From the NCBI GenBank assembly GCA_015063125.1, contig SUTB01000001.1, positions 248,001 through 312,000 on the forward strand: a DNA stretch of 64,000 nt, given 5' to 3'. Below, one piece after another: positions 34,657-37,727 of the stretch. Origin of the DNA: Thermoplasmata archaeon. GTDB lineage: Archaea > Thermoplasmatota > Thermoplasmata > Methanomassiliicoccales > Methanomethylophilaceae. The position numbers were made by a program, and so were the translations under genes. Each line of letters opens with the position of its first letter. Position 1 is the stretch's first letter. The notes beneath the pieces were generated by a model. The model was not told the DNA's origin and made no database searches. It saw nothing but the letters and a program-made list of their open reading frames with translations.

Positions 34657-34730
34657 GGGCCCGTAGTATAGCTTGGATAGCATAGGGGCCTCCGGAGCTC
34701 CGGACTCGGGTTCGAATCCCGACGGGCCCG
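34657..34730 (+). tRNA. tRNA-Arg (anticodon CCG)
   Basis: Acceptor GGGCCCG pairs with CGGGCCC. The anticodon stem GGGGC/GCTCC has loop CTCCGGA, anticodon CCG. The T arm is CTCGGG-TTCGAAT-CCCGA and the discriminator is G. No CCA is encoded. Its last 14 bases plus the next C are repeated exactly at 35430-35444, which marks this gene as an integration site. Confidence 0.93.
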
Positions 34731-34731
34731 C
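34717..34731 (+). repeat. attachment-site copy at the tRNA-Arg 3' end
   Basis: TCCCGACGGGCCCGC, the T stem and acceptor end of tRNA-Arg plus one base. It is one of a pair of 15-bp direct repeats enclosing the toxin-antitoxin islet. Confidence 0.7.
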
Positions 34732-34748
34732 ATAGTTTTATATATTAT

Positions 34749-34764
34749 AATAATTGGAATTATT
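34749..34764. repeat. 16-bp AT palindrome inside the islet
   Basis: AATAATT-GG-AATTATT, 18 bp inside the left attachment repeat. It could be a recombinase or regulator site; no partner is seen. Confidence 0.35.
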
Positions 34765-34819
34765 GTTGTGAACAAGCCCTTTTTTAAATATACTATTTAA
34801 ATAAGAAGCAAACGCTAGA

Positions 34820-34844
34820 TTTATATGTAATACAGTTGTATTAC
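34820..34844 (+). promoter_or_regulatory. promoter and operator of the toxin-antitoxin pair
   Basis: TATA box TTTATAT (34820-34826) runs straight into the perfect palindrome GTAATACA-gt-TGTATTAC (34827-34844), five bases before the antitoxin ATG. This is where a ribbon-helix-helix antitoxin would bind to repress its own operon. Confidence 0.65.
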
Positions 34845-34849
34845 CAAAT

Positions 34850-35074
34850 ATGGCCGTTTCAGTTAGATTCAATGATTCTGAGCTCGGATTGCTCAAGGAG
34901 TATGCATCCCTGTATAATTTGAGCATTTCAGATGTCATCCGCAAAGCCACCATAGAGATGATTGAGGATTCAATGGATGTGACGATATTGGAGGCTGCGA
35001 TGGATCATATCTCCAAGGATAAAACCAAGATGTATACCTTCGAAGAGGCCGGAAAGGAACTTGGATTCCTATGA
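34850..35074 (+). CDS. RelB-like ribbon-helix-helix antitoxin
   Basis: A 74-residue antitoxin. The N-terminal beta strand and helices (MAVSVRFNDSELGLLKEYASLYNLSISDVIRKATIE) fit the CopG/DUF6290 ribbon-helix-helix fold that dimerises on a palindromic operator, and such an operator lies immediately upstream. The C-terminal 30 residues (DHISKDKTKMYTFEEAGKELGF) would wrap the toxin. It overlaps the toxin start by four bases. Confidence 0.87.
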   Translation: MAVSVRFNDSELGLLKEYASLYNLSISDVIRKATIEMIEDSMDVTILEAAMDHISKDKTKMYTFEEAGKELGFL

Positions 35075-35337
35075 CATACTATGTTATCTTCTCTCAGGAT
35101 GCCATAGATACTTTGAAGAAGATGGATAGGCCGATGGCCGCTCGCGTATATTCGTGGATAGGCAAAAACCTTGAAGGATGTACCAATCCCAGGAGAACAG
35201 GGAAGGCACTTCAGGGAAACCATGCAGGTGAATGGAGATATCGTATCGGCGATTACAGAATCTTGGCCAAAATAGAGGATGAGATCGTTACCATATTCAT
35301 AATCGAAATTGGTCATAGATCCAATGTCTATGATTGA
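35071..35337 (+). CDS. RelE/ParE-family toxin
   Basis: An 88-residue toxin of the RelE superfamily. Pattern: YYVIFSQDAIDTLKKMDRPMAARVYSWIGKNL, RRTGKALQGNHAGEWRYRIGDYRILAKIEDE, VTIFIIEIGHRSNVYD. The Arg of WRYRIGDYR, the Lys/Arg cluster and the final HR..VY match RelE enzymes that cut mRNA on the ribosome. It looks intact. A terminator hairpin follows within 30 bp, and the pair fills most of a 0.7-kb islet. Confidence 0.9.
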   Translation: MTYYVIFSQDAIDTLKKMDRPMAARVYSWIGKNLEGCTNPRRTGKALQGNHAGEWRYRIGDYRILAKIEDEIVTIFIIEIGHRSNVYD

Positions 35338-35361
35338 ACTGATTTTATGAAATGATGTACT

Positions 35362-35392
35362 GACATTATCCTCAATAACAGGGTATAATGTC
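35362..35392 (+). terminator. terminator of the toxin-antitoxin operon
   Basis: GACATTAT...ATAATGTC around CCTCAATAACAGGG-type inner pairing, then TATTTTT. It sits inside the islet, upstream of the right repeat. Confidence 0.6.
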
Positions 35393-35429
35393 CTATTTTT
35401 CAAAACGTTTGGCTGGCATCTAAAGCGGG

Positions 35430-35444
35430 TCCCGACGGGCCCGC
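35430..35444 (+). repeat. second attachment-site copy
   Basis: Exact copy of the tRNA-Arg 3' end TCCCGACGGGCCCGC with no tRNA body before it. It marks the right boundary of the islet. Confidence 0.7.
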
Positions 35445-35504
35445 TCGTACAACAATTGATTTTTTGGGCTTTGTCCTTATAGTATAGAGTAACAAGGAGG
35501 GCCG

Positions 35505-36008
35505 ATGTCGAACATAGCTCTTGAGAAGTTGAAAGATTCCGACCGTGATCAGTTTGTTAGAGACAATCAGGAAGCTTTCAGATATGGGGCCACTGAAGAG
35601 TTCGGTCTTCGCGATGACCATTTCGAGGAGCCGGGCGAGATAATCTCCAGGGATACGATAGAGAAATCAATAGACAGCGGTGAGGCCTACAGGATCGTTT
35701 CAGACGGGAGATACGTGGGCGGCGTCATCGTATCTATCTCAGACGACCGCGGCGATTTGGAGATTCTTTTCGTATCGCCGAAGGAATATAGCAAAGGGAT
35801 TGGCTACGAAGCTTGGTGTTCTGTTGAGAAGATGTTCCCACAGGTCAGAGTGTGGAGCACGTGTACTCCTTATTTCGAGAAGAGAAACATCCATTTCTAT
35901 GTGAACAAGTGCGGTTTCCATATCACCGAGTTCTTCAACGAACATCACCGTGACCCGAATGACCCTGAAGATAGCGAGATGTTCCATTTCGAGAAGGTCA
36001 TGTTCTGA
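35505..36008 (+). CDS. GNAT-family N-acetyltransferase
   Basis: A 167-residue acetyltransferase transferring acetyl from acetyl-CoA to an amine. ALEKLKDSDRDQFVRDNQEAF opens the fold. YRIVSDGRYVGGVIVSISDDRGDLEILFVSPKEYSKGIGYEAW contains beta4 and the CoA-binding loop (KGIGYEA in place of RGxGxA). NIHFYVNKCGFHITEFF is the typical end. The substrate is unknown. GGAGG lies seven bases before the ATG. It lies just outside the islet; an AATAC-gatt-GTATT hairpin follows the stop. Confidence 0.88.
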   Translation: MSNIALEKLKDSDRDQFVRDNQEAFRYGATEEFGLRDDHFEEPGEIISRDTIEKSIDSGEAYRIVSDGRYVGGVIVSISDDRGDLEILFVSPKEYSKGIGYEAWCSVEKMFPQVRVWSTCTPYFEKRNIHFYVNKCGFHITEFFNEHHRDPNDPEDSEMFHFEKVMF

Positions 36009-36012
36009 TTCA

Positions 36013-36092
36013 ATACGATTGTATTATTGAAGATATGGTCATTAGATGGGTAGTTCGATGCCAGCTACATGTTTAATCAAATCAGCTTGTAG
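36013..36092 (+). terminator. inverted repeats between GNAT and AlbA_2-like genes
   Basis: AATAC-gatt-GTATT within TTCAATAC...TATTGAA, just after the GNAT stop. Then AGCTACA...TGTAGCT (about 36063-36092) lies nearer the next promoter. The first is probably a terminator, the second possibly an operator. A TATA-like ACTATATAG lies near 36127. Confidence 0.4.
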
Positions 36093-36156
36093 CTTCCATA
36101 ATCGATCCATTGTCTTCTGTAATTCAAACTATATAGAGTCGAAATGATAGCGATTC

Positions 36157-36618
36157 ATGGACTTCGGCAGTGAGAATGAGACAAGGGGTTTTGTCAGCGG
36201 CATGGACGAGCTAGACGCTGCCGTGAAGATGATGACCGCCATGCTCAACCGTTTCAACAAGGCCGAGATCTACATTGGCGTTGGAAAGGACGGCAAGATC
36301 CTGGATAGGGAATTCTCAGAGGAAGACGTGTCCAAAGTTTCCGAGAGGATGGGTGAGCTGATCAATCACATGCCGCAGACCGCCGTATCATTGGAAAGGA
36401 CGGAGGACGGGAAGGGATACATACGCATATCCGCCACGGGGTTCGAGACGCCCTATTCCTTCGGCAGTTGGTTCTACGTCAGGAGGTACCGCTACGTTGA
36501 CCGGGGTGGCTCCAAGTCTGTGGAATGGGTAGAGAACCTCACCTGCGGTATGAAGAGGCACCGATCGTTCTCGCCCGTTAAACGTATTATACTGTATAGC
36601 GATACTGGAACATTATGA
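36157..36618 (+). CDS. stand-alone AlbA_2/Schlafen-like domain protein
   Basis: A 153-residue protein with the pattern of AlbA_2 (divergent AAA-associated, Schlafen core) domains: a helix AVKMMTAMLNRFNKAEIYIGVGKDGKIL, then the helix DVSKVSERMGELINHM. Next come VSLERTEDGKGYIRISATG and PYSFGSWFYVRR, the usual closing strand where kin read xPYxxxGxYYxR. Relatives are fused to helix-turn-helix domains or act as RNA nucleases; here the domain stands alone. Its stop overlaps the CobD-like start by four bases, so it is co-translated with corrinoid genes, perhaps by chance of insertion. Assignment is by pattern only. Confidence 0.6.
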   Translation: MDFGSENETRGFVSGMDELDAAVKMMTAMLNRFNKAEIYIGVGKDGKILDREFSEEDVSKVSERMGELINHMPQTAVSLERTEDGKGYIRISATGFETPYSFGSWFYVRRYRYVDRGGSKSVEWVENLTCGMKRHRSFSPVKRIILYSDTGTL

Positions 36619-37727
36619 AAGGTCGCATACTGCCCCGCAAGGAACTGTCCGAATTGCCGAAGACCGTCCATGGCGGTCAGGCCTGGAGGATGGAGGGTAT
36701 CGAGGACTACAGCCATAACCTCAACCCGTTCGGACCTCCGGAGAACCTCGCGGAGATCGTCGCGACCGCTATCGCCGAAATAGGCCATTATCCCGACGAC
36801 ACCTGTGCCGAGCTTAAGGACACGGTGTCGAAGACATTCAACATCGATCCCGAATGCATCACGATAGGGGCGGGGTCGTCCGATATCATCAGGAACGTCC
36901 CCAACACCTTCTTCTCACCGGGGGACAAAGTCATAATCAACAGACCGAGCTTTGCCGAATACGCCCAGCAGTGCAGGCTCGTCGGAGCTAACATAGTTTG
37001 GAATGAATTGCTTCCGGAGAATGATTTCCGCATCGATCTGGATTCGCTGATGTACAACGTCGGTGACGACACCAAGGCGCTGTACATCTGCAACCCGAAC
37101 AATCCTACGGGAAGAGTGGAGCCCAGAGACAAGATCGTCAGCATAGTAAGGGAATGCGAGGACCGCGGAGTCCTTGTGTTCCTAGACGAGACCTTATTGG
37201 AGCTCGTTCCCGGATACGCTGACATAACCTTGACCGGAATGGTCGACAAGTTCACCAACCTGATCATCGCCAATTCCCTGACGAAATCCTTTGCCATACC
37301 CGGCATCAGGATCGGTTTCGGTCTCTCGAATCCCGACATCATCTCCGAGATGGAGAAGGTCAGGATGACATGGAACGTCGGCCAGATCGAACAGACGGTG
37401 GCCAACATCCTCATCAGAGACTATCTGGACTATGTAGACCAGGCAGCAGCAGTGATGGGCGAGGAATCGGAGATAATGAACTCGTCGCTCAACAACGTGG
37501 GATTCCCCGCTGGACCGGTATCGGATTCGTTCTTCTACTTCAACGACCTGAGCCCGCTGGGGATGGACTGTGCGCTCTTCCAGAAGAAGATGCTCTCCCA
37601 TGGTATAATGGTCCGCGACTGCTCGTCTTTCGGGCCCGAGTTCAAAACGTATGTGAGGTACAGTGTGAAGGACAGGGAGCGCAACTGCAGGTTCCTGGCC
37701 GCTGTGGATTCGGTTATCAATGGGTGA
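36615..37727 (+). CDS. cobD: threonine-phosphate decarboxylase-like PLP enzyme (CobD/HisC family)
   Basis: Likely makes aminopropanol phosphate from L-threonine phosphate for the corrinoid nucleotide loop. It is a 370-residue fold type I PLP enzyme: HGGQAWRMEGIEDYSHNLNPFGPP opens as in CobD, GAGSSDIIRNV, NPNNPTGRVE, FLDETLLEL and the PLP lysine in NSLTKSFAIPGIRIGF. The HGG...D(Y/F)S.N.NP start is typical of CobD, not histidinol-phosphate aminotransferase, and the following genes are cbiB, cobS and cobY. It begins inside the stop of the AlbA_2-like gene. Confidence 0.87.
   Translation: MKGRILPRKELSELPKTVHGGQAWRMEGIEDYSHNLNPFGPPENLAEIVATAIAEIGHYPDDTCAELKDTVSKTFNIDPECITIGAGSSDIIRNVPNTFFSPGDKVIINRPSFAEYAQQCRLVGANIVWNELLPENDFRIDLDSLMYNVGDDTKALYICNPNNPTGRVEPRDKIVSIVRECEDRGVLVFLDETLLELVPGYADITLTGMVDKFTNLIIANSLTKSFAIPGIRIGFGLSNPDIISEMEKVRMTWNVGQIEQTVANILIRDYLDYVDQAAAVMGEESEIMNSSLNNVGFPAGPVSDSFFYFNDLSPLGMDCALFQKKMLSHGIMVRDCSSFGPEFKTYVRYSVKDRERNCRFLAAVDSVING

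Follow-up and report, generated by a model that had tools for sequence, protein, structure and literature searches.

A RelBE insert behind tRNA-Arg(CCG) as a probable cassette of a tRNA-anchored system in one family of methanogens

In a 64-kb stretch of archaeal DNA (the window), an insert carrying a RelB/RelE-type toxin-antitoxin pair lies directly behind tRNA-Arg(CCG). Our analysis indicates that this insert is probably a cassette belonging to a site-specific system that is anchored at a tRNA gene and occurs in a single methanogen family. A cassette of this system would consist of a short head, one gene or toxin-antitoxin pair, a tail of about 85 bp and a core derived from tRNA-Arg(CCG). The RelBE pair itself is ordinary, and the novelty lies in its carrier. 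The original prediction had described a minimal integrated islet without an integrase of its own. That an integrated unit is present is well supported by an empty site for sister cassettes and by an allele swap between strains at the repeats, but the description is incomplete, because the unit belongs to a multi-cassette family with a conserved tail resembling a recombination site.

The 15-bp sequence TCCCGACGGGCCCGC forms the 3′ end of tRNA-Arg(CCG) (R1) and recurs exactly at the end of the insert (R2), as originally proposed (Table 1). When up to one mismatch was allowed, no third copy was found elsewhere in the 64-kb window, and with 0.01 matches expected at this tolerance in 64 kb, a chance repeat can be ruled out. 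The insert is about 0.7 kb long and AT-rich, as had been noted, with GC content falling from approximately 0.55 upstream to 0.36 to 0.45 within it. Its two small genes are adjacent and overlapping, as in type II RelBE systems, and their products match the RelB and RelE/ParE families that had been assigned to them; the solved chains nearest to the toxin are 2khe_A and 3g5o_B. Neither the list of open reading frames nor domain searches revealed an integrase gene in the insert, in agreement with the first reading. The regulatory signals proposed for the insert fared less uniformly: a TATA-like box and a palindrome can be recognized directly upstream of the antitoxin start codon, and this region is similar in a strain of the window's species (G005) and in another species (G008), but a terminator belonging to the insert did not emerge from the terminator scan, in which the tRNA itself was the sole terminator-like site. 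The tRNA was likewise the only Rfam match above the gathering score.

Table 1. Features of the tRNA-Arg(CCG) locus in the window
Feature	Position	Strand	Basis or remark
tRNA-Arg(CCG), anchor (attachment) gene	34657..34731	+	ARAGORN; Rfam RF00005
R1, 15-bp core at tRNA 3′ end	34717..34731	+	Exact repeat search
Cassette head ATAGTTTTATATATTA	34732..34747	+	Common to G009 and G015
TATA-like TTTATATG	34820-34827	+	By eye; presumed promoter
18-bp palindrome GTAATAC-AGTT-GTATTAC	34827-34844	+	By eye; presumed antitoxin operator
RelB-family (DUF6290) antitoxin, 74 aa	34850..35074	+	NF046040 8.7e-20; Pfam DUF6290 2.3e-21
RelE/ParE-family toxin, 88 aa	35071..35337	+	TIGR02385 9e-7; ParE_toxin 1.4e-13
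Conserved cassette tail	35349..35429	+	Covariance model and covariation
Tail inverted repeat GACATTAT / ATAATGTC	35362-35369 / 35386-35393	+	
Tail motifs TGGC / AAGC	35410 / 35423	+	
R2, second 15-bp core, cassette end	35430..35444	+	Exact repeat search
Interval R2-cobD	35445..36614	+	GNAT-like gene and AlbA_2-like fragment
GNAT-like gene	35505-36008	+	Within R2-cobD interval
AlbA_2-like fragment	36157-36618	+	Within R2-cobD interval
cobD-like aminotransferase	36615..37727	+	First conserved right-flank gene

In eight unoccupied genomes of the same genus, the cobD-like gene begins about 110 to 190 bp behind the tRNA, whereas a gap of 1.9 to 7 kb, filled with differing genes, separates the two in the window's species and in its closest relatives; this marks the interval as a variable integration spot. 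The window's right flank lacks the arm present in other species, a point against the cassette explanation. Among the loci compared, the genes between R2 and cobD occur at this locus in the window's species only, and the interval is possibly an older, decayed insertion. Its AlbA_2-like fragment is 29% identical to a protein that another genome encodes beside a cassette site (L135) and is perhaps a decayed older cassette.

The original prediction had overlooked that approximately 85 bp before R2 are kept between loci of differing cargo. At these sites a covarying inverted repeat is followed by the TGGC motif, AAGC and the tRNA 3′ end. Compensating changes in the inverted repeat leave 94% of cells paired, a value reached by none of 500 shuffles, and versions of the repeat slid out of register were 22 to 45% paired. 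The R2 region is able to fold. Some G-U pairs in the inverted repeat, however, would also be compatible with a hairpin in RNA, for instance a terminator, which counts against a recombination site. A covariance model trained on 12 sites matched the window at 35349-35446 with 93.7 bits (E = 7.7e-18), the window being one of the training sites, and found about 40 copies of the site in one archaeal family, which is Methanomethylophilaceae by several record labels. Matches came from 12 of the 31 genomes in the genus and 17 of the 147 in the order, counts that lean on the training sites; all fell within this family, in genera g1, g5, g7 and g12, and among 389 genomes of the phylum the model had no match outside it. 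A search of 257 billion bases of prokaryote genomes with the exact 22-base core pattern returned 13 stretches. Eleven were from archaeal records (by title Methanomethylophilaceae, Thermoplasmata or Methanomassiliicoccaceae, some labelled goat rumen or sheep colon), and the other two were single bacterial matches.

In the same four genera, up to four cassettes stand in tandem behind tRNA-Arg(CCG), each closed by tail and core. G112 holds four, G057 has four on one contig and three on another, and G070, G067 and G006 have two each; many of the genomes are drafts, with contigs that often end within arrays. The cassettes are compact, mostly 0.7 to 1.9 kb, and carry one gene or gene pair. AAA/DUF4143 ATPases made up 18 to 19 of 53 proteins scanned, a set that included some array-flanking proteins, and the remaining cargo comprised DUF6290/ParE pairs, nucleotidyltransferase/HEPN (MNT/HEPN) pairs, AlbA_2 proteins and one Fic protein. 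Searches of open-access literature returned no description of such arrays. Some cassette heads (L123 13878, L127 9342, L124 479 and the second cassette of the G006 array, L046) begin with the T-arm-like sequence TTCAGATTCAGGTTCGAATCC, as though the end of a different tRNA had been taken up. A near-identical two-gene element resembling an insertion sequence lies inside a G015 cassette (L036 1466-2601) and next to the G001 array (L085 15080-16214). In G019, an HEPN_LA2681 protein is encoded behind tRNA-Arg(CCG) (L192 2094-3599), possibly another defence-type gene at this spot.

Cassettes recur across genera at 93 to 98% identity and at differing array positions, whereas the flanks are mostly 72 to 83% identical. 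One cassette occupies position 1 in G001x and G112, position 2 in G115 and position 4 in G057; another is found at position 1 in G006, position 3 in G009x and position 4 in G112. The majority of homology blocks extend from one core to the next. The head of the window's cassette is also present in G009 and G015, two other species, where it precedes different cassette genes. Conservation of the arrangement in distant species, named by the original prediction as an argument against a mobile islet, was encountered in form only: the frame recurs with different cargo and in a different order, a pattern that favours mobility.

The comparison of empty and filled loci that had been suggested at the outset yielded an exact empty site in the related species G013, where the sequence following the core corresponds to the sequence following R2 in G009 (119 of 128 positions) and G015 (104 of 120). 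This pair of states concerns sister cassettes, and the case for the window's own cassette is based on a swap between two strains of its species rather than on an empty site: G000 and G005 are 99.6% and 98.9% identical in the flanks and 78% identical in the insert, carry different RelBE alleles, and differ between borders that fall at the two repeats. Between G005 and another species, G008, the inserts are 95% identical.

In most tRNA-anchored arrays, the core variant is the variant of the host's tRNA (..CCCGACGGGCCCGC, ..CCCGGCGGGTCCGC), and the rare core variant ..CCCGACAGGCCCGC of G019 also equals that of its host tRNA. Exceptions that speak against our preferred explanation are G115, where the tRNA and the core of the main site are mismatched at one base, and G008, whose core is degenerate. 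So do two arrays, in G001 (L085 9488-14928) and G009 (L087 1513-6599), that lie away from tRNA-Arg and have a core unlike the host tRNA-Arg(CCG). In both, the first core is without a tail.

Tyrosine recombinases, the class of enzyme proposed to move the cassettes, were present in 16 of 18 genomes examined; PF00589 had no match in G115 and G012, both of them drafts. The best candidate, presumably acting in trans, is a 341-aa tyrosine recombinase in G019, encoded roughly 0.9 kb away from a cassette-type site whose core is that host's tRNA variant. Since this site and tRNA-Arg are on separate contigs, the link between them rests on the shared core variant. The preceding gene contains a Walker-A-like motif by eye and matched neither Pfam nor PHROG. 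A relative of the recombinase (55 to 56% identical) lies 450 bp from tRNA-Arg(CCG) in G018, and a split relative in G074 lies 8.5 kb from tRNA-Arg(CCG), downstream of a degenerate site; more distant relatives (36 to 43%) included none beside tRNA-Arg(CCG). In G074, repeats resembling a CRISPR array (L169 10959-14481) lie near the split recombinase as well as a RelBE-like pair behind tRNA-Arg. The G019-type subfamily is absent from most array genomes, which weighs against the proposal and is why we infer action in trans; a search for a linked recombinase did not find one in every array genome. A viral source received no support in the collections searched: the viral contigs contained neither a tblastn-confirmed relative of the G019 recombinase nor the exact core pattern, and phage records gave no match to the recombinase.

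We consider mobilization in trans, as the original prediction had proposed for the insert, the likeliest mechanism. A G019-like tyrosine recombinase supplied in trans would act on a circular cassette, joining its core to the 3′ end of tRNA-Arg, which would function in the manner of attI. Insertion would restore the tRNA gene and leave the incoming cassette beside it, so that repeated insertion would build an array. The tail may serve this enzyme as an accessory or structural region for recognition, and judging from family names, the cargo (RelBE, MNT/HEPN and DUF4143-type ATPases) may help to keep the array or act in defence.

The arrays might instead represent tandem accretion of decayed tRNA-Arg elements, similar to CIMEs, that have lost their integrase and move rarely, with the help of a related complete element. 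CIMEs and the ssrA islands of Dehalococcoides have the same topology, the G019 recombinase adjoins the same type of site and has the Walker-A-like gene upstream, recombinase pieces lie downstream of the degenerate site in G074, and in G007 the tRNA and a site are about 25 kb apart. We nevertheless regard this explanation as unlikely: the cassettes are compact, 93 to 98% identical in several genera and cleanly bordered, and such compactness and intact recurrence give them the appearance of stable mobile units and not of random leftovers. Spread mainly by homologous recombination between arrays, through tails, cores and tRNA flanks and with no dedicated recombinase, could yield the G000/G005 allele swap and exchange between similar arrays, and no tyrosine recombinase was found in two array genomes. 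It is very improbable, however, given that G013 is empty at exactly the position where G009 and G015 carry cassettes that have little beyond the core in common with G013, and that borders at short cores and changes of order across genera are hard to obtain by long-homology exchange alone. In a casposon-like or transposon insertion, a Cas1-type or DDE transposase would have produced the repeat by duplicating its target site. The repeat, 15 bp long and placed at the 3′ end of a tRNA, is reminiscent of the target duplications of casposons, and some right arms partly mirror the tail over 12 to 13 bp (GGTACATTATAC). This reading is nevertheless scarcely credible: of 18 genomes examined only 5 contained Cas1, and the window's genome was not among them; the tail mirror is missing from most cassette heads; and the repeat varies with the host tRNA and recurs as the boundary of each cassette.

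A tRNA-anchored cassette system with its own site invites comparison with several known elements. As in other tRNA-integrated elements, a repeat marks the far border; an own integrase, characteristic of autonomous elements only, is lacking. The window pair falls into the RelB and RelE/ParE families and other cassettes carry MNT/HEPN, so the cargo resembles RelBE and MNT/HEPN systems. The ssrA islands of Dehalococcoides stand in tandem behind a tRNA-like gene, each with a 20-bp copy of its 3′ end and additional conserved sequence beside the repeat, and 15 of them have no integration module and may be mobilized by their neighbours (PMC3146451). Those islands are bacterial, many have a serine-recombinase module, and they carry reductive dehalogenases, whereas the cassettes described here are archaeal, contain no integration gene and in most cases just one gene or one gene pair, end in an inverted-repeat tail and are shuffled across genera. 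CIMEs lack an integrase, keep both att sites and stack at a gene 3′ end (PMC5704250). All three features, including tandem accretion at one gene, are seen here, but CIMEs are decayed ICEs or IMEs, while these compact cassettes recur intact across genera; a candidate helper element for CIME-type mobilization was found in G019 only.

Integron cassettes and CALINs likewise combine small mobile cassettes, a structured 3′ site, shuffled order and frequent toxin-antitoxin cargo, and CALINs form ordered arrays without an adjacent integrase (PMC11389934); integrons are also found in archaea (PMC9668308). The present arrays share the tandem cassettes, the conserved structured terminal site and the shuffled order. 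Unlike in integrons, the anchor is a tRNA gene and not attI, and the core is tRNA sequence. An integron of the IntI/attC kind can be rejected: the attC boxes RYYYAAC and GTTRRRY were absent from all 12 sites tested, and IntI (TIGR02249), which CALINs do not require, did not exceed the cut-off in any of 17 array genomes. We are evenly divided on whether this is an archaeal integron-like system of independent origin, in which the tRNA-Arg(CCG) 3′ end is the platform, tail and core form the site, and a non-IntI tyrosine recombinase moves single-gene defence and toxin-antitoxin cassettes in trans between gut methanogen genera. If so, some gut methanogens would own a gene-capture platform that parallels integrons yet is based on a tRNA and an unrelated site. 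The site provides a ready search model for mobile defence and toxin-antitoxin genes in these archaea, and makes it testable whether small elements without an integrase spread by means of another element's recombinase. Together, these comparisons place the arrays as a system that combines features of ssrA islands, CIMEs and integrase-less integron arrays with a site of its own.
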